Notes: a model not told the origin generated them from the letters alone. 64,000 nucleotides of DNA from Prevotella heparinolytica (GCF_004342845.1 NZ_SLXB01000018.1:1-64000); one strand, 5' to 3'; counted from the stretch's first letter, positions 32,606-43,148 are shown. A program made the numbers and translations.

Positions 32606-33796
32606 ATGAACATTTTATTTATGTATAACGGAATGTTCCATCCTCTTCGCGGAGGCTTGGAACGGGTGTCCGATTTGCTTTGTCGCGAGTTTGTCCGGAG
32701 GGGGCATTGCGTATTTTACTTGCATCATACATACGATGAAAAGATGTCAGGCTATTCCTATCCTGCATCCATGTCTTTCTTTCCCAATTCTTCGGTTACG
32801 GAGTTAAAAGAAAACGGTGCTTTTTATCGGAATTTCTTGATTCAAAATAAGATCGATATTGTTATTGTTCAAAATCCCATGGATTACCATAAACTGTGTG
32901 CCTTTTCTAAAGATTTGAGACATGTAAAGGTTGTTTCCGTGATACATTGCAACCCTTTGTATATGTATCACCATATGCATCTGCTCATGTGGCGGTTGAG
33001 GAATGACACGTTTATCGAGAAAATCAAAAGAGTGGCGCGTGTCATCAAAATGCCGAAGCGCAAACGCACATATCTGGAGTGGCTTAGAGGATGTTATGAC
33101 GGTGCTTTTGCCAATACGGATTTGGTGTGTTTGCTGTCAGAAAAGTTTATTCCGGAGTTGAGGAGCATTCGCATTAAGCATTTCGATATAAACAAGACAA
33201 TTGCCATAGGTAATCCCAATACGTATCCTCTGCAAGATATTTCCATCAATCGGAAAAAGAAACAGATTTTGTATGTAGGCCGGATAGAGTGGTATCAGAA
33301 ACGTGTAGATAGGATGGTGGTCATTTGGAAGAAACTTTACAAACAGTTTCCTGATTGGGAGTTGGTGATTGTGGGTGACGGATCTTTCAAGCAGGAGCTC
33401 GAGCAGAAGGCTGTGGGACTGGAACGCATTGCTTTTGTAGGGTGGAAAGACCCGGAGTCTTATTATAGAGATGCGGCTATTTTATGTTTGACCAGCGACT
33501 TTGAAGGTTGGGGGATGGTACTGACGGAGGCGATGACTTTTGGCACGGTTCCTGTGGCTTTTAATACGTATGCTGCCGTGACGGAGATCATAGAAAATGG
33601 TTGTACTGGGATATTAGTAAAGCCGTTTTCTTACAGTAGGTTTGCTGGCAAGTTGGCCATGTTGATGCGTGACGACGCTTTGCGTACCAAAATGGCTGCG
33701 AGCGGCAAGGCATATGTGCGGCGTTTTGACATACAACGGGTGGCCGATCGATGGGAATCTGTTTTTCGTAACCTGAAGGACGGAAGCCATTGTTAG
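32606..33796 (+). CDS. family 4 glycosyltransferase
   Basis: 396 aa from ATG 32606 (MNILFMYNGMFHPLRGGLER); the open frame reaches back to 32516 only because the glf relic is in frame with it. GT-B fold: N-terminal Gly-rich acceptor loop RGGLERVS and C-terminal donor site ILYVGRIEWYQKRVDRM with SDFEGWGMVLTEAM carrying the E-x7-E motif. It overlaps the convergent wzx gene by 4 nt. Confidence 0.85.
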   Translation: MNILFMYNGMFHPLRGGLERVSDLLCREFVRRGHCVFYLHHTYDEKMSGYSYPASMSFFPNSSVTELKENGAFYRNFLIQNKIDIVIVQNPMDYHKLCAFSKDLRHVKVVSVIHCNPLYMYHHMHLLMWRLRNDTFIEKIKRVARVIKMPKRKRTYLEWLRGCYDGAFANTDLVCLLSEKFIPELRSIRIKHFDINKTIAIGNPNTYPLQDISINRKKKQILYVGRIEWYQKRVDRMVVIWKKLYKQFPDWELVIVGDGSFKQELEQKAVGLERIAFVGWKDPESYYRDAAILCLTSDFEGWGMVLTEAMTFGTVPVAFNTYAAVTEIIENGCTGILVKPFSYSRFAGKLAMLMRDDALRTKMAASGKAYVRRFDIQRVADRWESVFRNLKDGSHC

Positions 33797-35328
33797 CATT
33801 TCCGTTTTATAATGCGATGAGTTAACGAGCGCATGCCGGGAGTTAGTAAATAGAGTAATATATAGACAGTTGTAGCATAAATAGAGGTGATGGTGGCACC
33901 GTATGCCATCCAATTGCCAAACGAACGTTGTGGGGCGAATATACGTTCTGGAAGCAAGTTGTGATAAGCAATGAGCGGCAGTAAGGCTATGAGCAGGTAC
34001 TTGGTGTAGTCCACCCAATAATGCGTCACTGGCATTTTGAACCCTTTTGCATAGAGGAAGCAGGGTTTCCAGATAACGATGAGTAGTAACTGGCTGGTAA
34101 TGTTTCCCAAAAGGATTCCGGGTAACCCCAAAAAATATCCTCCCGTTATGGCAACAATCAGATTGATGCAGATTTCTGCAACAGGTGCCCATGTATCTTG
34201 AAACAATCCATATCCGTAGATAAACTGGTCGGTGGCGCCGCGCGTATAGCCGATGAAGGAGTTCAGGATTATCAGGTACAGTATATGCCTTGATATGATA
34301 TATTCGTCTCCTAACCAGAGTGAGATAAAGGCGTCGGTCAGTTGGAGCAGGGCAAACGAAATCGTCCCGGCTATCAAAAAACGTATTCCCATCAGTTCCC
34401 AGAAAACCTGCAAGATGCGTTTGGTGTTGCCTTCTGCAATAAGGTTGCCCACACCGGCGTTGGTGCTTCCCAGCAGGTTGCTTATGAAGATACTGATTTT
34501 ATCAATGATGAGCGTATAGTTCCCGTAGTAGGCCACTGTCTTCAACGAGACGAAAGCGTACACTAAAAAAGGGGTGGTTTGAAACTGTACGAAACCGCCT
34601 ATCCGGTGTACAAACAGTTGCTTGGTATATTTTATGACTTCCGGATATTTCTTGAAGAGGAGCTTTCCTTGCTTTATTTCACTCCGCAGCCAAGGATATA
34701 CCTGATTCACCTTCCAATTTAGAATGACGGAGTAGGTGATTCCCAATAGCAGTTCCATGCTTATCCACAGGTAATAATTGCCTGTATAATACACCAGTGT
34801 CATTTGTAGGAGTGTTTTTATGATTATGGCGCTTTGGTAATAGGCTGTCACCACATAGTTTCTTTGGTCTGCTCCCAAGAGCGTTTGTTTGTAGTTGGCA
34901 AAATAGCCTATCAACGAGGTGGTGAGGTAAGAAAAGAAAGCAAAGCAGACAACTCCCAACTCGAAGACATTGTTGGGGAAGATAAGAGGCAGGAAACATG
35001 CAAGCACGCAGCCGGCACTTAGAATAATGAATCCGATGCGGCGGTATAAGAATCCGAAAACGGAGATTATCTCGTTGATTTTCGGCTCGTTGTGTTCAAA
35101 AAGAGGTTTGTACAGCACATAGCCTATCGCTGTGCTGATGCCCAGTTCGGCAAGATTAAGGAAGCCCAGCAGGTTGTTCATGGTGCCTATCAGTCCCATG
35201 AAATCGGCGCCCAGCGCATCCAGAAAAATCTTTCTTGAGAAGAAGGACAGGGCCAGATTCAGGAAGTAGAAGATGAGGTTGACCCGGGCATTGAGCAATG
35301 ATTTTTTTAGTCGCGAGGCTTCAGGCAT
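33793..35328 (-). CDS. wzx: polysaccharide flippase (Wzx, MATE/MOP fold)
   Basis: 511 aa with about 12-14 membrane segments spread evenly along the chain. It begins RLKKSLLNARVNLIFYFLNL and has LLGFLNLAELGISTAIGYVLY, typical of Wzx-like exporters. It would turn lipid-linked repeat units across the inner membrane. It is the only flippase in the window and lies on the opposite strand to the first EPS segment, with a 4-nt tail-to-tail overlap and no terminator between. Confidence 0.9.
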   Translation of the reverse strand: MPEASRLKKSLLNARVNLIFYFLNLALSFFSRKIFLDALGADFMGLIGTMNNLLGFLNLAELGISTAIGYVLYKPLFEHNEPKINEIISVFGFLYRRIGFIILSAGCVLACFLPLIFPNNVFELGVVCFAFFSYLTTSLIGYFANYKQTLLGADQRNYVVTAYYQSAIIIKTLLQMTLVYYTGNYYLWISMELLLGITYSVILNWKVNQVYPWLRSEIKQGKLLFKKYPEVIKYTKQLFVHRIGGFVQFQTTPFLVYAFVSLKTVAYYGNYTLIIDKISIFISNLLGSTNAGVGNLIAEGNTKRILQVFWELMGIRFLIAGTISFALLQLTDAFISLWLGDEYIISRHILYLIILNSFIGYTRGATDQFIYGYGLFQDTWAPVAEICINLIVAITGGYFLGLPGILLGNITSQLLLIVIWKPCFLYAKGFKMPVTHYWVDYTKYLLIALLPLIAYHNLLPERIFAPQRSFGNWMAYGATITSIYATTVYILLYLLTPGMRSLTHRIIKRKC

Positions 35329-35584: not shown

Positions 35585-36028
35585 TCACCATCTTTCTTTC
35601 TTCACCTCGAAGCAAGGGCACTGCTTGGTCCATTCCATCGGTTCGATTTCGCCGTTGTGGTTCAGGTCGGGGCTGAGGTCGCGGTGTCCTACGACTTTTG
35701 CACCCGGATGGTCGGCCAGCAGCACCCTGACGAGGACGCGTAGCGAGTGGCGTTGCCATTCGGTTCGCGTGTCTTTGGGGTTGCCGTAGTGGTCCAGACC
35801 GCCTTCATAGCACACGCCGATGGAGTGGGCATTGTGCCCACGGGCGTGGATGCCGACCCTCTCGACCGGGCGTGTGGTAAGGATGCGGCCGTCGCGACGG
35901 ATGTAGAAGTGATAGCCTGTGCCGTCAAATCCGCGTCGACGATGTGCCGCCTCCAGAGCCTGCTCGGTAAAGGGACGGTCCTCGCACGTGGCGCTGCAAT
36001 GTATCACGATCAGGTCAATGCGTCTCAT
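35585..36028 (-). CDS. N-acetylmuramoyl-L-alanine amidase (Amidase_2)
   Basis: 147 aa from ATG 36028 (MRRIDLIVIHCSAT); the longer frame from 36124 runs through the smalltalk gene in another frame and is rejected. Zinc ligands are His in IVIHCSA, His in VVGHRDLSPD and a Cys in the C-terminal CPCFEV; GYHFYIRRDGRI is the substrate-side strand. It has no signal peptide of its own, as in phage endolysins. It lies 5 nt downstream of the smalltalk gene. Confidence 0.9.
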   Translation of the reverse strand: MRRIDLIVIHCSATCEDRPFTEQALEAAHRRRGFDGTGYHFYIRRDGRILTTRPVERVGIHARGHNAHSIGVCYEGGLDHYGNPKDTRTEWQRHSLRVLVRVLLADHPGAKVVGHRDLSPDLNHNGEIEPMEWTKQCPCFEVKKERW

Positions 36029-36033
36029 TGCCG

Positions 36034-36144
36034 TCACAGATTGCCGCCGGTCATGGCATGTGCGCTGAAAGCACCCAGCAAGGCCGATGCCACAGCGATG
36101 ATCAGTTTCAGTACTTTGTCCCAAGTCGATGATTTCTGTTTCAT
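36034..36144 (-). CDS. smalltalk protein
   Basis: 36 aa, starting MKQKSSTWDKVLKLIIAVAS and ending MTGGNL. A short basic N-terminus, one hydrophobic helix (about residues 11-30) and a small polar tail match the 'smalltalk protein' family of Bacteroides. Its function is unknown. Position directly before an amidase, with TGA and the next ATG 5 nt apart, is the position of a holin in a lysis cassette; the size and single membrane helix would allow that, but it is inference. Confidence 0.82.
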   Translation of the reverse strand: MKQKSSTWDKVLKLIIAVASALLGAFSAHAMTGGNL

Positions 36145-36245
36145 GTTTCTTTTAGATAATCGGTTAGTAATTAGTTGGTTAGTGGTGGTTGATTAGCGGT
36201 TGGCGGCTTGTTGAGCACTAACCGCCAATCGTTCGCCGCTCCTCA

Positions 36246-36782
36246 TCATCCCAGCGGATTTTCGCTCTGTCCGCCTTCCGAGCCGGGGGTGCCGGAATGT
36301 TCGCCGGGGGTGCCGCTACCGGCGGACGGTTTATTCCCGGCAGGTTTGGAGGGCTCTTCGGACACGAGTTCGAAGACGATGTTGTTGGGCGCGCCTTTGG
36401 TGGTGGCGTTGCTGTCGTTTACCAGGCGGAAAGCGTTGGCCACGCGGAAGCGGATGTTGACGCGTTCGATGTTTTTCACCGTGCAATCTTTGGCCGCTTC
36501 GCTGGCGCGGCATCTGAAGGTGGTGTGGAAGATGCCGAAGCCGTCCAGCTGGACACTGTTGCCGTCGGTCAGGGTCTGACGCATCTGGCGGATGATGGCC
36601 TTGCCCACGTGCTCCACGTCTTCGGCCGACATGCCGCCGAGGGCTTCGATGTCTTGTGCCAGGCGGCTGAGGTTGAAGATTTTCGCATCTTTGGGCTTGC
36701 GTTTCAGGATATAGACCATGGGCGACTGGGTATTTCCGATTTTCTTGCGGCGCATGCTGCGTACTACTAATGCTGTTGACAT
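36246..36782 (-). CDS. HU-like DNA-binding protein with Gly/Pro/Ser tail
   Basis: 178 aa. Residues about 20-140 are the HU-HIG / TIGR01201 fold: MVYILKRKPKDAKIFNLSRLAQDI, then QMRQTLTDGNSVQLDGFGIF, which corresponds to the HU dimer core. The final 35 residues (SKPAGNKPSAGSGTPG onwards) are a flexible tail. This HU class recurs beside smalltalk and amidase genes in Bacteroides. It may shape or protect DNA during a specialised replication event. Confidence 0.88.
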   Translation of the reverse strand: MSTALVVRSMRRKKIGNTQSPMVYILKRKPKDAKIFNLSRLAQDIEALGGMSAEDVEHVGKAIIRQMRQTLTDGNSVQLDGFGIFHTTFRCRASEAAKDCTVKNIERVNIRFRVANAFRLVNDSNATTKGAPNNIVFELVSEEPSKPAGNKPSAGSGTPGEHSGTPGSEGGQSENPLG

Positions 36783-37130
36783 GATGATTGAGTGTTTTTT
36801 TTAATGTTTTGTTATAAAAAGTTTCTCTGTGCGAAACGGCGGGGCGGGGGAGATGTCTCTGCAGCGAATCTGTCCGCTTCGTTTCGTTGATGCAAAGATA
36901 GGAAGCCGCCGGGGGAGGGACGGAGGTTCTGGGAGGTTGGCGGAGGTTAGGAGAGGATATGGGAGGATAAAAAGGAGGATACGGTTGCATCCTAACCACT
37001 ACACACATCATGTGGCGGTTAATAGTTGAACAGAAAAAGGAAGAATAAGTCCTTTTAGTGTCCGGAATATCGCTGTTCCTATCGGCATCGGGAGTTCTGT
37101 GCCAAACTTCAGGCGGCTCCTTGCCCCTCT
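36783..37130. other. 348-bp gap with a -7 motif and a lone repeat-like unit
   Basis: No gene is evident. TATCTTTG on the minus strand (36893-36900) is a good -7 match about 110 bp before the HU-like gene. At 37083-37099 the sequence CGGCATCGGGAGTTCTG matches 16 of 17 positions of tandem array 1 (8230-8286), a solitary copy 29 kb away. Confidence 0.45.
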
Positions 37131-37382
37131 TCACGGTTCGCCCAGCGCGTCGACGATGAGCTTCACTTGTGCCGGGGTGTAGTGCCTGCTTGTGGGGCGC
37201 AAGCCGGTGGCCATAAGGCGTTGTTCCAGTCCGGGGGAGGTGCGTATCCATTTGTTGAAGCGGTTGACGGCCGTCTGCTGGCACACGTTGGGGAGGTAGA
37301 GCGAGGCGAGTTCGCCCTTCCCGTAGCTGTGTATCGGGAAGGGGGACTCGGGCAGTAGTTCTGCGGTTTTTCCGGTTTGCAT
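37131..37382 (-). CDS. DUF4248 family protein
   Basis: 83 aa, soluble, ending at an ATG 45 bp after the primase-helicase stop. The core IHSYGKGELASLYLPNVCQQTAVNRF is typical of DUF4248, small Bacteroides proteins with a helix-turn-helix look and conserved beside DUF4373 and primase genes. It may be a DNA-binding partner of the replication proteins; function unknown. A possible -7 element TACATTTG (minus strand) lies at 37416-37423. Confidence 0.82.
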   Translation of the reverse strand: MQTGKTAELLPESPFPIHSYGKGELASLYLPNVCQQTAVNRFNKWIRTSPGLEQRLMATGLRPTSRHYTPAQVKLIVDALGEP

Positions 37383-37427
37383 GTCTGTTGTTTTATTTTG
37401 TATTTATTACTGATACAAATGTAGTGA

Positions 37428-39254
37428 TTATTCGTTGAATAACCTACCGTTTTCGGCACTATTTTTCAGCCAATTTTCGTTGTCGAAACGTGTGTTCACG
37501 GGGCCCGGACGGTCGCCGTCGGGGGTGTGGACGATGTCTTCCTCGCAGGGCCAGTAGCGGCCGTTCAGCAGGTTGTAGACGAAGGAGGCCGAGGTGTGTG
37601 CCCTGCCCAGGTGCTTGAAGCGCACCTTGTCGATGTAGACGGTGACCATCTGCTTGTCGTCGTTGCGGTCTACGGCCAGGCAGTAGTCGGCCATGTTGCC
37701 GAAGTCGGCCGAGCCGTTGATGTCGTTCATCTCCACGCGGCGCAGCTGGCCGGTGTCGGTGCGGTTCACCTTGCGGGGGTGCACCACGAGGATGACGAGG
37801 CATTTGTTTTGCGTGGCAAACCGCCCTATCTTGCGCAGCGTGGAGCGGATGTTGAGCAGCTCGGATTCGCCCGCGGAGGCGGGAGGCGTTTCGAGGCGGT
37901 TCATGGGGTCGATGACGACGATGCGCACGCCCCTGCGGCGCACCACCTGGCGGGCTTTTTCAAGCACGTGGTCGATGGTGTAGCTTTCGTCGCCGGGCAG
38001 TATGTGCACGATGTTGTCCGTCAGCCAGCGTTCGGCGTGGTCGAAGAGGGCTTCGGTGAGACCTCCGTCGATGTGGAAGCGCTTGCCCGTGAGCTTTTCT
38101 ATCAGTTTGGACTGGTGGTAGACGATGGGCATGTTTTCGGGGCTGAAGTAGGCCACTTTCCACTCGTGGCGCAGGCAGAGGCGCAGGGCCAGTTCGTCGA
38201 TGAACTCCGACTTGCCGTCGCCGGGGCGTCCGGTGACGATCATGAGGCGTCCCGGCTCGAAGGTGCAGTTGCGGTCGAGGTTGTCCCAGCCCGTGCCGGC
38301 GCCTTGTTGCAGGCCGTTTTCGTAGAGGGTGCGGAGGTCGTCGTGGCACTCTTGCGCGGTGAATATGCCCTCCAGAGGCACTTCTTCGGCTTGTTCGAGG
38401 CAGATGCGCAGGCTCTCGGCGCCGTACTTCACGAGGTGTTCGTTGGCGTCCTTGCAGCCGGGGCCGAAGTGCACCGTGCGGCAGCGTTCGGCGCCGAGCC
38501 GGCGGATGAGTTCTTGGCGCAGCAGCATTCCGGCGGCGTCTTCGTCCACGGCGATGCAGATGCTCTGCTTGTCCTCGAAGTGGGTGTCGATGAAGCGGTC
38601 GAGCCACGTCAGGTTGGTGTTTGCGCCCGATGGCACGGAGATGACGTCGTTGCGCCCGGCGGCCATGCACGCGGCGGCGTCGAACTCGCCCTCGGTGATG
38701 ATGCACTGCGGGGTGCCCAGTATGCCGTCGATGTTGTAGGGGATGAGTTCGGCTCCGCTCACCATCATGAAGTGCTTCTGCGCGCTGCGGTACTTGGTGT
38801 TGACCAGCGTGCCGTTCTCGAAGTAGTTGAAGCAGATGCAGTTTTCCTCGCGGTTGTCGGCCGGCATGCGCCGGCGCTCTTCGGTGATGCGCAGCCGGGC
38901 CAGCAAGCCCTGGGGCAGGCAGCGGGTCTCGGTCCAGTAGCGTTCCAGCCGTTCGCTGAGCTGCATCTTCGAGGGGTCGAAGACGGGGCGGCGGAAGTGC
39001 TGCGGCGGGCGGGCGGCCTGCGTGCGCTGCTGCAACCGGAGGCTGTGCTCGCGGCGGGCGCGCTCTTCGGCTTCGTCGGGCACGTAGAAGCTCCAGCCGC
39101 AGTGGTGGCATTTGCACAGTCCGAGGTCTAAGTTCACGGAGAGCGATTTGTCTCCTTTGTGTCTGCGCGTGTCGTTGCATTGCGGGCAGACGGTTTTCAC
39201 TTTGCCGCTGTTGCGGCCGCGGGTGTCGATTCCATACTTGTGATAGTTTCTCAT
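37428..39254 (-). CDS. primase-helicase (zinc ribbon, Toprim, DnaB-like ATPase)
   Basis: 608 aa, arranged like phage T7 gp4. Residues 20-60 hold a primase zinc ribbon (CPQC and CKCHHC). Residues about 185-280 are a Toprim domain with ITEGEFDAAACMAAG and IAVDEDAAG. From about 320 a RecA/DnaB-type helicase has Walker A TGRPGDGKSEF and Walker B IVVIDPMNRLE. It should prime and unwind DNA. With a DUF4373 gene upstream and an HU-like gene downstream it forms a replication set of phage or plasmid type. The gene is markedly GC-rich compared with flanking EPS genes. Confidence 0.88.
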   Translation of the reverse strand: MRNYHKYGIDTRGRNSGKVKTVCPQCNDTRRHKGDKSLSVNLDLGLCKCHHCGWSFYVPDEAEERARREHSLRLQQRTQAARPPQHFRRPVFDPSKMQLSERLERYWTETRCLPQGLLARLRITEERRRMPADNREENCICFNYFENGTLVNTKYRSAQKHFMMVSGAELIPYNIDGILGTPQCIITEGEFDAAACMAAGRNDVISVPSGANTNLTWLDRFIDTHFEDKQSICIAVDEDAAGMLLRQELIRRLGAERCRTVHFGPGCKDANEHLVKYGAESLRICLEQAEEVPLEGIFTAQECHDDLRTLYENGLQQGAGTGWDNLDRNCTFEPGRLMIVTGRPGDGKSEFIDELALRLCLRHEWKVAYFSPENMPIVYHQSKLIEKLTGKRFHIDGGLTEALFDHAERWLTDNIVHILPGDESYTIDHVLEKARQVVRRRGVRIVVIDPMNRLETPPASAGESELLNIRSTLRKIGRFATQNKCLVILVVHPRKVNRTDTGQLRRVEMNDINGSADFGNMADYCLAVDRNDDKQMVTVYIDKVRFKHLGRAHTSASFVYNLLNGRYWPCEEDIVHTPDGDRPGPVNTRFDNENWLKNSAENGRLFNE

Positions 39255-39322
39255 AATAATTTCGTTTTATTTTTACAAAAAAAAAGATTTGGTTCGTAGG
39301 TGTGCGGGGCGGACTCCGGGGG

Positions 39323-39476
39323 AGGAGCGTCGTCTGCAAGCCCGCATTTGGCGGCCTGCATGCCCGCACCCGGTTGTCCGCAAGCCCGCACTTCGTCTCC
39401 TGCAAGGCGGCACTTCACTGCTTGCTGAGTGGCACTTTGAGGCCTGCAAGGCGGCACTTCATGGTTGTTGCGCCCT
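39323..39476 (+). repeat. 22-nt tandem array 4
   Basis: Seven 22-nt steps (39323, 39345, 39367, 39389, 39411, 39433, 39455), the first and last partial. Typical units read CACTT-N8-TGCAAGCCCG or CACTT-N8-TGCAAGGCGG. The TGCAA-CCCG end is the same as in array 3 although the two lie 20 kb apart. It sits in the 250-bp gap between the DUF4373 and primase-helicase genes. Confidence 0.85.
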
Positions 39477-39504
39477 CGGCCTGCGGGGCACATGGGGGGT
39501 GCGG

Positions 39505-40719
39505 TCAGCTGTTCCATGCCGCCGTGGTCTCGTCCCAGTAGGACGTGGCCGAGGGGCGCGGTGGTGCGTTCGCCGGTATGGGGCAGCCCAGATAGGTGCG
39601 TTTCCCGTCGATGCGCTGCTCGTAGCGGTAGGGGTCGGGAGGGGCGACGGCCGCTCTTCCGGGTGCGGCTTCCAGCTTGAGCAGGGTTTGCCGCAAGGCC
39701 TGCGAGGTGTTTCGTCCTGCCATGGTGAAGTAGGCGAAGTAGCGCTTCACGTCGCTGAGTTTCAGCAGTTCACCGCCTTTCCCAAGGTAGATGATGTGCT
39801 GTTCGAACAGCTTTACGGCCTCCTTCAGGTGGCGGCTCAGCAGGTCGCCGTAGCCGCTTTTCATGAAGACCACTTCGAGCCACGAGCAGTCGTTTTGCAT
39901 TTCGTCGAGGTAATGCTTCCAGTGTAGGATGGCTTTGTTTTCCTCCACCTCCACCTCCACCGGTGAGGGGGATATATGGGGGAGGTATTTTCTGTTCTTC
40001 TCTTCTCTGTTCTTTTCTTCTCTTACGCGCGCGAGGCTTTTGCGGTGCGTTAAGTTGCTGTTGCATAGTGGTTTATAGGTACTTTGGGGTGTCGTCCTGT
40101 TGCTTGCCGGTTCGGAGCCGGCTCGGAGTTGGCTCCGGGTCGGCACGGGGTTGGCGGGTAGTCCGCGCGAAGAAGAAACGATGACCGTTTGCCCGTTTTC
40201 CGGGGTGCCTCCGCTTGTGGGTTTCGTTGCCTTTTGGGACATCGTTTTTGTGATTTCACGGTTTGTCACCGGGGCGGCGGCTTCTTGGTCTGCCGGTTTT
40301 GTCACCGGGGCGTTGGAGGTTGCTTTCCCGTCGCGGGGCATGGTTTGTGCCGTTTCCGGTTTTGTTTCCGCGGCGTGGTTCCCGTTCTTTTTCCGTTTTT
40401 CGGTGGTATTTTTCTTTGACACAGATTGTTCCTTCCGCCACGGCTCGCAGAAGTCGATGGCCGACGAGAACATGTCTCCTTCGATGACGAACAGGCCGTA
40501 GTTCCTGACTATTTTTTCGAGATAGGCTTGTGGGAAGCCTTTCTGCTGTATGAGTTTCAGTTGCCCGAGGAAAAGGCGGTTGGAACTCTGGCCGTAAAGG
40601 TGTTCGATGATGAAGAGGTAGCTGCCATATCCGCGTGCTCCTTCTTCGTCGATGAGCTTGAAGAGCCTGCTGTCTTCGCTCATGTTGAAGCGGTGTTTAA
40701 ACCAACTATAGTTTTCCAT
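39505..40719 (-). CDS. DUF4373-type replication protein
   Basis: 404 aa. Residues 1-95 (ENYSWFKHRFNMSEDSRLFKLIDEEGARGYG) match the DUF4373 / Lin1244-Lin1753-like N-terminal domain found in phage replication initiators. The middle (about 100-250) is low-complexity, rich in Lys, Thr, Pro and Gln. The C-terminal quarter is helical again (LSRHLKEAVKLFEQHI) and ends YWDETTAAWNS. It likely recognises an origin or loads the downstream helicase. It is the first gene of the minus-strand module and has its own promoter. Confidence 0.8.
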   Translation of the reverse strand: MENYSWFKHRFNMSEDSRLFKLIDEEGARGYGSYLFIIEHLYGQSSNRLFLGQLKLIQQKGFPQAYLEKIVRNYGLFVIEGDMFSSAIDFCEPWRKEQSVSKKNTTEKRKKNGNHAAETKPETAQTMPRDGKATSNAPVTKPADQEAAAPVTNREITKTMSQKATKPTSGGTPENGQTVIVSSSRGLPANPVPTRSQLRAGSEPASNRTTPQSTYKPLCNSNLTHRKSLARVREEKNREEKNRKYLPHISPSPVEVEVEENKAILHWKHYLDEMQNDCSWLEVVFMKSGYGDLLSRHLKEAVKLFEQHIIYLGKGGELLKLSDVKRYFAYFTMAGRNTSQALRQTLLKLEAAPGRAAVAPPDPYRYEQRIDGKRTYLGCPIPANAPPRPSATSYWDETTAAWNS

Positions 40720-40799: not shown

Positions 40800-40875
40800 A
40801 AAAGCCGGGTTCGCGGCATTTTATCGGCCTCAGAACATGCTGTGAGGGCTATAAAATGCCGCAAACCCGGCTTTT
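40800..40875. repeat. 76-bp near-perfect hairpin in a divergent gap
   Basis: Arms 40800-40824 and 40851-40875 are complementary at 24 of 25 positions; the outer part reads AAAAGCCGGGTT and the inner part GCGGCATTTTAT. The 26-nt loop has its own CCTCA/TGAGG pair. It lies 7 bp upstream of the -33 element of the minus-strand module and 300 bp before the AbiL-like pair, so it is not at a gene end. The rest of 40720-41177 is AT-rich and without a gene. Confidence 0.85.
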
Positions 40876-41177: not shown

Positions 41178-42500
41178 ATGATATTAAGAGTAACAATAGG
41201 TAATCTGTATTCTTTTATGGAAGAAACTGCAATCAGTTTTGTTGCAGGAAAGAGTACAATGCATGGAGAACAGGTAAGCAGGGCAGAAAAGCGTGATGAT
41301 ATTTCTGTCTTGAAAGCCGGTGTTATCTATGGTGCTAATGCTTCCGGCAAAAGCAATATTATCAAAGCCGTTTCCGTGATACAAAAGATTGCTTTGTCTG
41401 GTGTGCCCAAGAAATATGTGGAACCGTTCAAATTAACTACCCCGAACAGCAAGCCCTCAAAGGTGGAAATGGAATTTAAAGTAGGGAAAAAGTTCTTTGC
41501 ATATGGAGTTGAATTTTCCTTTAAAGGTATAGTGGAAGAATGGCTTTATGAAATTAACAGTCGTACGGACAAGAAGATTTATGCACGCAAAATTACAGCA
41601 GATGGAAATGAATTTACATTTGGTGCAGTTAATGGTGATGCGGAAACGCTACAATTATTGAAATTTATAAGCCAGAGTACTCCTGTGACAGATAGTTTTC
41701 TCGCAGAGTACATTAAGCGAAATGGTAAGGGATTGCCTCTAATCAATGACGTATATCGTTGGATGAAAGAAAATTTGAAGATAATTTTCCCGGATTCACG
41801 TTATGACGGTATATTCATTCGTGCAGAGAAAGATGAGGATTTTGCAGCAGCAACTAAGTCTTTATTAGAGTATTTCAATACAGGCATTGTAGATATACGC
41901 CGTACTAAGGTGAATAAAGAAGATGTCGATTTACCTAAAAACTTAATAAATGAACTTTTGGCAGATGCAAAACCCGATAACATTTATGTAATTGCATCAC
42001 CGTCGGACTCTACTATTTATTTCTTTGAAACAGATTCAGAGGGAATAACGATTATATATAAGCAAAACGCAATCCATAAGGCTGCCGGCAACAATGAAGT
42101 TCCATTTGAGATGAGTGAAGAATCCGATGGTTCCATCCGCCTGTTGGACTTCATTCCTATGCTGATTGACCTTCGGCTGAATGAATCGGTTTATTTGGTT
42201 GATGAAATAGATCGCAGTATGCACCCTATGTTGTCACAAAAGTTATTAGAATATTATTTCAATCATCTTTCTAACGAGCGTGATACGCAATTGATATTCT
42301 CTACGCACGAATCCAACTTGTTGAATTTGGAGTTAATTCGGGCTGATGAAGTTTGGTTTGTGGAAAAATGTCAACAAGGAGCATCGCATCTTACTTCTTT
42401 GGCAGAATATAAGCCAAGGGAAGATATACGCAAGGGTTATCTGCAGGGAAGATATGGTGCGATTCCTTTCTTTGCTCCTATCAAAAGTTTAAAATGGTAA
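41178..42500 (+). CDS. AAA ATPase of an AbiL/RloAB-type defence pair
   Basis: 440 aa, AAA_15/AAA_21 family. Walker A GANASGKSN (about residues 51-59), an SMC-like signature region, Walker B SVYLVDEIDRSMHP, switch His in IFSTHESNLL, and the C-terminal GRYGAIPFF motif common in these ATPases. Partnered 6 nt downstream by an RloB protein, the arrangement of AbiLi/AbiLii and RloA/RloB. Such pairs act as abortive-infection systems, with the ATPase holding a nuclease-like partner in check; that mechanism is known only for relatives. AT-rich composition compared with the GC-rich neighbour module points to recent transfer. Confidence 0.85.
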   Translation: MILRVTIGNLYSFMEETAISFVAGKSTMHGEQVSRAEKRDDISVLKAGVIYGANASGKSNIIKAVSVIQKIALSGVPKKYVEPFKLTTPNSKPSKVEMEFKVGKKFFAYGVEFSFKGIVEEWLYEINSRTDKKIYARKITADGNEFTFGAVNGDAETLQLLKFISQSTPVTDSFLAEYIKRNGKGLPLINDVYRWMKENLKIIFPDSRYDGIFIRAEKDEDFAAATKSLLEYFNTGIVDIRRTKVNKEDVDLPKNLINELLADAKPDNIYVIASPSDSTIYFFETDSEGITIIYKQNAIHKAAGNNEVPFEMSEESDGSIRLLDFIPMLIDLRLNESVYLVDEIDRSMHPMLSQKLLEYYFNHLSNERDTQLIFSTHESNLLNLELIRADEVWFVEKCQQGASHLTSLAEYKPREDIRKGYLQGRYGAIPFFAPIKSLKW

Positions 42501-42506
42501 GCAGCC

Positions 42507-43148
42507 ATGAGAAAAAGAAAAGACTTTGAACGACCGGAAGGGATAAAATCCGCAAGATTGGTTGTCATTGCAGCTGAAGGCAGAAATTCTGAAAACATCT
42601 ACTTTGAGGCGATGAAAACCGAACGGTGTGCTTCGGATGTTCATGTGGAAATTCTGCATCGCGACTCAAATGATTCAAGCCCTGAGAGTGTTTACAAGCA
42701 AATTCGTGGATTTATAGCCGAATATAACATTGAAGATGACGACCAACTGTGGGTTGTGGTAGATAGGGATAAATGGAAAAACAAAATGCTTTCCTCGGTG
42801 GCGCAGCATTGTGCACAGAATGGCAATTTACACTTCTGTGTAAGTAACCCGTGCTTTGAATTATGGTTGCTGCTTCATGTGGAAGATATTGCTTCATATG
42901 ATAAGGAGCAGATGGAAGCTCTTTCCTTGAACCGGAAAGTGAACTGTCAGGATACGTGGCTGAAGAAACGCATGAAAGATTTGACCGGACATTATCATGA
43001 ATCGGATTATGATGCAGCTGCTCTTTTACAGCATATTGTTACTGCAATGGAAAGAGCGGAAAAATTGGATGTATCACCAAAAGACAGATGGCCTCAAAGT
43101 GTCGGAACAAGGGTTTATTTGTTGGCGAAGAGTATAATGAATTTATAA
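42507..43148 (+). CDS. RloB-family protein (probable Toprim-like nuclease)
   Basis: 213 aa. RloB signatures: VVIAAEGRNSENIYFEAM near the start (the acidic EGxxxE motif), DDQLWVVVDRDKW (acidic DxD) and the hallmark CVSNPCFELWLLLH. The acidic motifs recall Toprim/OLD nucleases, so it is the likely toxic effector of the pair. No toxin-neutralising gene other than the adjacent ATPase is present. It ends near 43148, followed by 150 bp without a gene. Confidence 0.87.
   Translation: MRKRKDFERPEGIKSARLVVIAAEGRNSENIYFEAMKTERCASDVHVEILHRDSNDSSPESVYKQIRGFIAEYNIEDDDQLWVVVDRDKWKNKMLSSVAQHCAQNGNLHFCVSNPCFELWLLLHVEDIASYDKEQMEALSLNRKVNCQDTWLKKRMKDLTGHYHESDYDAAALLQHIVTAMERAEKLDVSPKDRWPQSVGTRVYLLAKSIMNL

Follow-up and report, generated by a model that had tools for sequence, protein, structure and literature searches.

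A conserved module that joins phage-type replication genes, candidate iterons and a lysis-like gene pair in Bacteroides and its relatives

Six adjacent genes on the minus strand of the analysed window (the whole stretch of DNA, 64,000 nucleotides in length) combine phage-type replication genes with a small membrane protein and an endolysin-type amidase. The best reading of this module, to which we give slightly less than an even chance, is that it is a resident chromosomal replicon of phage origin, which lacks a capsid, carries a lysis pair and is maintained by selection. At the level of sequence it builds on the identities and the order of the genes, the selection that acts on them, an array of repeats, the association of repeat and initiator within genomes and the swapping of replicases and hydrolases between relatives. 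It would further entail iteron binding, local over-replication, a membrane lesion, a trigger and a benefit.

Results

Genes and setting of the module

The window lies on contig C18 of a genome of 3.64 Mb that belongs to a species of Bacteroides. An initial annotation had placed six genes on one strand, and matches to Pfam, PHROG and NCBIfam recovered all of them on the minus strand and in the order given there. They are transcribed from DUF4373/DUF7833 through the primase-helicase, DUF4248, HU-HIG and smalltalk to the amidase. The genes and the features around them are:

39505..40719, minus strand: protein of 404 aa with DUF4373/Lin1244_N and DUF7833, a predicted replication initiator (Pfam, PHROG of homologues, AlphaFold)
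37428..39254, minus strand: 608-aa primase-helicase of the T7 gp4 type, with a zinc finger, Toprim and DnaB_C (Toprim_2, DnaB_C, PHROG 239)
37131..37382, minus strand: DUF4248, four-helix small protein, 83 aa (Pfam, 89 bits)
36246..36782, minus strand: HU-HIG DNA-binding protein with a Gly-rich tail, 178 aa (PF18291, PHROG 379)
36034..36144, minus strand: smalltalk (NF033879 / DUF6486), 36 aa, single hydrophobic helix in a holin-like position (NCBIfam, 50 bits)
35585..36028, minus strand: 147-aa zinc amidase of the T7-lysozyme type, its gene coupled to that of smalltalk (Amidase_2, PHROG 822)
39322..39461, no strand: six direct repeats of 22 bp between DUF4373 and the primase, candidate iterons/origin (lag-22 signal)
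36921..36950, no strand: 10-bp-phased short GGAGGTTNNG repeats in the DUF4248-HU interval (sequence)
40800..40875, no strand: nearly perfect palindrome of 76 bp that lies some 80 bp upstream of DUF4373 (sequence)
41178-43148, plus strand: ATPase (AAA_21) and RloB pair of the AbiLi/AbiLii type, divergent from the module (PADLOC)

The predicted initiator matches DUF4373/Lin1244_N with 23.2 bits, slightly below the Pfam cut-off of 25, and DUF7833 with 69 bits (cut-off 24.3), and its homologues match PHROG families of replication initiation and replisome organisers. Its AlphaFold model has two confident domains with a low-confidence linker between them, and we predict from it a winged-helix-like N-domain, a disordered linker and a helical C-domain; the best matches to this model in the PDB include winged-helix DNA-binding domains, none of them significant. 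The primase-helicase contains Toprim_2 and DnaB_C and matches PHROG 239 with an E value of 3e-89; this match and the prophage relatives described below mark the replication genes as phage-type. DUF4248, modelled with a mean pLDDT of 82.5, gave no significant match in the PDB. The HU protein matches PF18291 (HU-HIG) with 64 bits against a cut-off of 26.2, as well as PHROG 379, a DNA-binding family; a role for it in DNA packaging is a guess. The whole genome holds 22 matches to the HU-HIG family, 20 of them above the cut-off, and just two smalltalk genes.

The module is GC-rich (0.55-0.64 over 36-40 kb) and has an AT-rich flank (0.35-0.41 at 41-43 kb). The surrounding polysaccharide genes, among them glycosyltransferases, a flippase (33793-35328), a polymerase, a Wzc-type protein and a sugar transferase, reach 55083. 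As had been noted before, the window gave no sign of an integrase, capsid, portal or terminase, either in the list of open reading frames or, in a PHROG scan of 36 window genes, among the matches listed (25 of 36), which belong to replication, amidase and polysaccharide families and include no structural family. A search for an attachment site found none, and there is no tRNA in the window. Arrays similar to the 10-bp repeats occur in the DUF4248-HU interval of several relatives. The 22-bp repeats, the palindrome and the AbiLi/AbiLii-type pair had escaped the initial annotation. In the literature, smalltalk and DUF4248 are named just in lists or as an isolated gene of P. gingivalis.

Candidate iterons between initiator and primase

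The spacer between DUF4373 and the primase contains an array that is new in the present analysis, namely six direct repeats with a period of 22 bp and the minus-strand core GAAGTGCSGSCTTGCRG. Its lag-22 signal was reached by none of 200 shuffles, and an AT-rich stretch (39250-39300) lies beside it. Regularly spaced direct repeats and an AT-rich stretch next to an initiator gene are also the arrangement of iteron replicons (plasmids and phage origins of the lambda-O type). In contrast to these, the module is chromosomal and a putative replicon, and its initiator matches Lin1244_N and DUF7833 and no plasmid Rep family.

Fifty-four loci had a measurable DUF4373-primase spacer, and in 27 of them the 22-bp lag was significant (p < 0.01 per locus against dinucleotide shuffles). 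These 27 are nearly all from Bacteroides and all include HU, and none of the loci without HU among the 54 had a significant 22-bp period in the spacer. In phages, the DUF4373 and primase genes overlap or touch, and both spacer and array are absent.

A period of 22 bp does not by itself prove an origin, because such arrays are common in the same genomes (about 3 others per 100 kb, mainly intergenic). Dyads with an arm of at least 5 were present in 16% of the module repeats, compared with 50% of the background arrays and 6% of the shuffles. The module repeats are thus seldom palindromic and near the shuffles, and the array is therefore mostly of a different, direct-repeat kind. We regard it as a set of candidate iterons at which DUF4373 may bind and which may act as an origin. 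The array gives a formerly vague guess about local replication a specific, testable form. Control regions from Bacteroidaceae (L240-L279) held many intergenic arrays with a 22-bp period, of 2-4 units, half of them palindromic and differing in sequence between genomes.

Solo initiator copies and the upstream palindrome

Three more DUF4373 copies, unlinked to the module and without primase, HU or amidase, were found in the window's genome (contigs C4, C29 and C3). After each of them come 22-bp repeats that share the window's core, AAGTGCGGgcTTgCGGa; those on C29 are the most worn. The proteins on C4 and C29 end after the linker, at 246 and 274 aa, and the C3 copy is broken. The 76-bp palindrome (fold z -6.0) also precedes the C4 and C29 genes at about the same distance, with 82-85% identity. 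We rejected chance or a MITE-like repeat as its explanation, since it precedes three DUF4373 genes of this genome; none was found, however, in the orthologous species.

A corresponding pattern with another sequence was seen in a second species (G032), where the module repeat differs (GCACCTGGCAAA...) and two unlinked solo DUF4373 loci bear that genome's repeat. A counter-example is G017, whose two DUF4373-primase loci have different repeats. Cores that recur within a genome and differ between genomes are the pattern expected of an initiator and its own binding sites. Shared cores could equally record the spread of a small element; either reading would link the repeat to DUF4373.

The smalltalk-amidase pair

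In the window, the amidase gene starts 5 nt after the smalltalk stop, and in several relatives the two genes overlap, in some by 4 nt. The amidase start is almost certainly the ATG at 36028, just past the end of smalltalk (36034), and not the TTG at 36124. The protein matches Amidase_2 with 66 bits and the lysis amidases of PHROG 822 with 171 bits, and residues H10, Y39, H115, K135 and C137, a complete catalytic set, are invariant in 12 homologues. We take these to be the catalytic residues of T7 lysozyme.

In a comparison of 93 homologues, smalltalk emerged as a short hydrophobic helix that has a leading Trp and is rich in small residues. The C-terminus reads ..GxxSC in 46 of them and ..AxAM (..ANAM) in 39, at the same column, so that the family resembles a signal peptide without a mature protein, with Cys (lipobox-like) or Met after AxA. 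Because of this signal-peptide-like end, a processed membrane peptide is possible besides a holin-like role. The pair resembles a holin-endolysin cassette in that a single-helix small protein adjoins, and is coupled to, a zinc amidase with all the expected catalytic residues (the 5-nt gap in the window, and a hydrolase at most 1.2 kb away in 26 of 56 loci); it differs in that smalltalk is a putative holin at most, with a signal-peptide-like C-terminus. The phage-like logic perceived in the initial annotation, replication genes and then a small membrane protein with an endolysin-type amidase, was borne out, and a replication-plus-lysis logic is supported at the sequence level. HU-smalltalk-amidase cassettes elsewhere in the window's genome (C1, L063) and at L083 and L084 are followed by very large secreted proteins, not by polysaccharide genes.

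Conservation, selection and modularity

Primase orthologues are present throughout Bacteroides, and the block, found in about 18 named species, sits for the most part in a polysaccharide locus of one Wzc/polymerase type, with glycosyltransferases on both sides. These orthologues, together with a set of neighbours far beyond chance, agree with the earlier description of the module as conserved. The genes kdgK-eda are also near the block in B. clarus (G031) and in G036. The position of the Bacteroides orthologues in one locus type points to vertical descent.

Median pairwise dN/dS was 0.10 for the amidase, 0.14 for HU, 0.15 for smalltalk, 0.18 for DUF4248, 0.20 for the primase and 0.28 for DUF4373, and 0.05-0.11 for the neighbouring polysaccharide genes. 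All six module genes are thus under purifying selection, which argues against a decaying remnant. Kept by selection in many Bacteroides species, the module therefore probably has a function.

Of 101 genomes sampled from the family, 41 contain smalltalk, and a single genome can have as many as nine copies. HU lies within 1.5 kb on the same strand in 51 of 56 smalltalk loci (91%), compared with 6 of 702 control points. A wall hydrolase is present at a distance of up to 1.2 kb in 26 of the loci (46%), compared with 4 of 702 controls; for both, the controls are at about 1%. Of the 56 loci, 22 have DUF4248 at most 3 kb away and 22 a replication gene at most 5 kb away, against 0 and 26 of the 702 control points, respectively. 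The 26 hydrolases comprise 16 Amidase_2, 5 M15, 3 P5-like and 2 Amidase_3 proteins; the replication slot holds DUF4373 with a gp4-type primase, a BT4734_N/DUF3987 protein or a DnaB-like helicase; and in the B. ovatus group a 101-aa protein without any match takes the place of smalltalk. Such unrelated parts in equal slots suggest that it is the combination that matters, i.e. a replicase, HU, a small membrane protein and a wall hydrolase. Since a replicase is missing from the vicinity of many HU-smalltalk cassettes, the lysis-like pair is not dependent on the replicon. A general link of HU-smalltalk to polysaccharide loci was considered and rejected as weak outside the genus Bacteroides, with polysaccharide genes near smalltalk in 10 of 60 regions and in 3 of 40 controls, one of these controls being itself a module.

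Circular and viral records

B. finegoldii 'plasmid 68' (NZ_OY725970, 3850 bp, circular, with primase and DUF4248) was rejected as evidence of a circular form and is an artefact, a contig broken at an IS. Many other 'plasmids' of that strain end in the ~126 bp that also terminate this one, and such sister records resemble broken contigs. The remainder of 'plasmid 68' can be aligned collinearly, with 97% identity, to the genome of another B. finegoldii strain. 'Bacteriophage sp.' records (MT83xxxx) were likewise rejected as evidence of packaging, as the informative ones carry bacterial SusC/D, efflux and glycosyltransferase genes. Two IMG/VR entries (L286, L287) were set aside as viral copies; they are provirus calls in isolate genomes that resemble the chromosomal module. 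In viral contigs, primase relatives are common, sometimes with DUF4373 alongside, and HU, smalltalk and amidase together were found in none of the contigs examined save such provirus calls. Several unverified faecal 'Bacteriophage sp.' records (MT835xxx-MT839xxx) hold genes of bacterial chromosomes (SusC/D, efflux pumps, a glycosyltransferase).

Discussion

If the module is a resident replicon with a lysis pair, DUF4373 would bind the 22-bp iterons in the spacer, open the DNA there and load the gp4-type primase-helicase, and extra replication of the surrounding locus would follow upon some trigger. HU-HIG and DUF4248 may give the DNA its shape or govern the switch. Smalltalk would form, or help to form, a membrane lesion by which the amidase reaches the peptidoglycan, and either the producing cell would be lysed or its wall opened locally. 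Smalltalk cassettes are currently annotated just as unrelated fragments, and several domains of unknown function would gain one if the module were shown to be a phage-type replicon with a lysis pair under chromosomal selection; the amplification or release of chosen loci by gut Bacteroides would then become testable, too. In a bolder version, which we hold to be a long shot, the module is a domesticated device that amplifies and releases DNA: on a signal, the polysaccharide/defence locus would be over-replicated from the module's own iteron origin, and some cells would lyse, their DNA feeding kin. Were this true, the scattered solo initiator-iteron copies would make up a network of such origins, or of incompatibility controls, across the genome.

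Of the rival explanations, use in defence is the strongest, although we consider it unlikely. The replicon would serve as a decoy or, through HU-HIG, as a sensor of phage replication or foreign DNA, and smalltalk and the amidase would kill the infected cell. Defence genes do lie in or beside the module: the AbiLi/AbiLii-type pair in the window and, between primase and HU in some relatives, type II RM with Vsr, a type III REase, AbiLi with RloB (L175), HEPN-MNT pairs and PF09820 ATPase-nucleases. PADLOC matched 103 families in 45 such cargo proteins and 9 in 80 control genes (counts of families, not of genes). Burroughs et al. reportedly proposed in 2017 that the HU expansion in Bacteroidetes recognises invasive elements, and HU-HIG proteins, which the operons concerned share with the module, are said to be predicted to act against them; to our knowledge, no iteron array, solo initiator-iteron copies or modular swapping are described there. 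However, these defence neighbours may be passengers of a variable region, and the six module genes have no PADLOC match apart from a weak one of the primase. Alternatively, the module would be a fossil of a temperate phage, its early replication and late lysis genes remaining after the loss of the structural genes and now drifting. Temperate phages of Bacteroidales do carry the same two genes (DUF4373/Lin1244 and a gp4-type primase-helicase, PHROG 239) in the same order, with primases 43-49% identical, and in prophages such pairs are neighbours of genes for RecE, a methyltransferase, ParB and a helicase; primase relatives are common in viral contigs, and the amidase is from a phage lysis family. 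Unlike the module, however, with its array between initiator and primase and with HU, smalltalk and amidase following, the phage pairs overlap or touch without an iteron spacer, amid phage recombination and methyltransferase genes. Purifying selection, which acts on each of the six genes in Bacteroides, the order kept while parts were repeatedly replaced by functional equivalents, and the lack of HU-smalltalk-amidase sets in the viral contigs examined, save the provirus calls mentioned, make a drifting fossil improbable.

A mobile role was also weighed. In an active satellite or transfer agent, which we find quite improbable, the module would amplify the polysaccharide or defence locus and free DNA for uptake or for packaging by a helper phage. 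An origin-like array, a primase-helicase and a lysis pair are found together, there are several copies per genome, and in one genome solo palindrome-DUF4373-iteron copies are scattered. Like phage satellites (PICI, P4, PLE), the module has few genes, capsid-less replication and defence cargo; it differs from them in having its own lysis pair, a position that is stable across species, as vertical descent would have it, and no integrase or att site found. Integrase, capsid and terminase had no match in the ORF list or, for PHROG, among the matches listed, the 'plasmid' copy is an IS-broken contig, and the virome copies are artefacts, with ordinary bacterial genes in the 'phage' records. Of the earlier idea of a domesticated satellite that replicates local DNA, local replication has thus gained weight from the iteron-like array and the core shared by unlinked DUF4373 copies, and mobility as a satellite has found no support. 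Very improbable, in our estimate, is a cell-wall helper, in which the amidase and smalltalk would open peptidoglycan for polysaccharide export and the replication genes would be unrelated passengers. The position inside a Wzc/polymerase-type locus in about 18 Bacteroides species favours it, as does the mention of an amidase in a three-gene CPS cluster (PMC12118408), but most HU-smalltalk-hydrolase cassettes lie outside polysaccharide loci, and the replication genes are under selection too. The proposal that the module serves the polysaccharide locus in repair or exchange has position as its sole basis. This position is conserved in the genus Bacteroides, but elsewhere most cassettes lie outside such loci; both this device and a satellite that releases DNA are conjectural.

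Parts of the module also occur in a prophage setting in the window's genome: contig C42 (L064) contains a prophage fragment, with a phage virion morphogenesis protein and a minor head protein, that includes DUF4248, HU-HIG and a P5-like endolysin.
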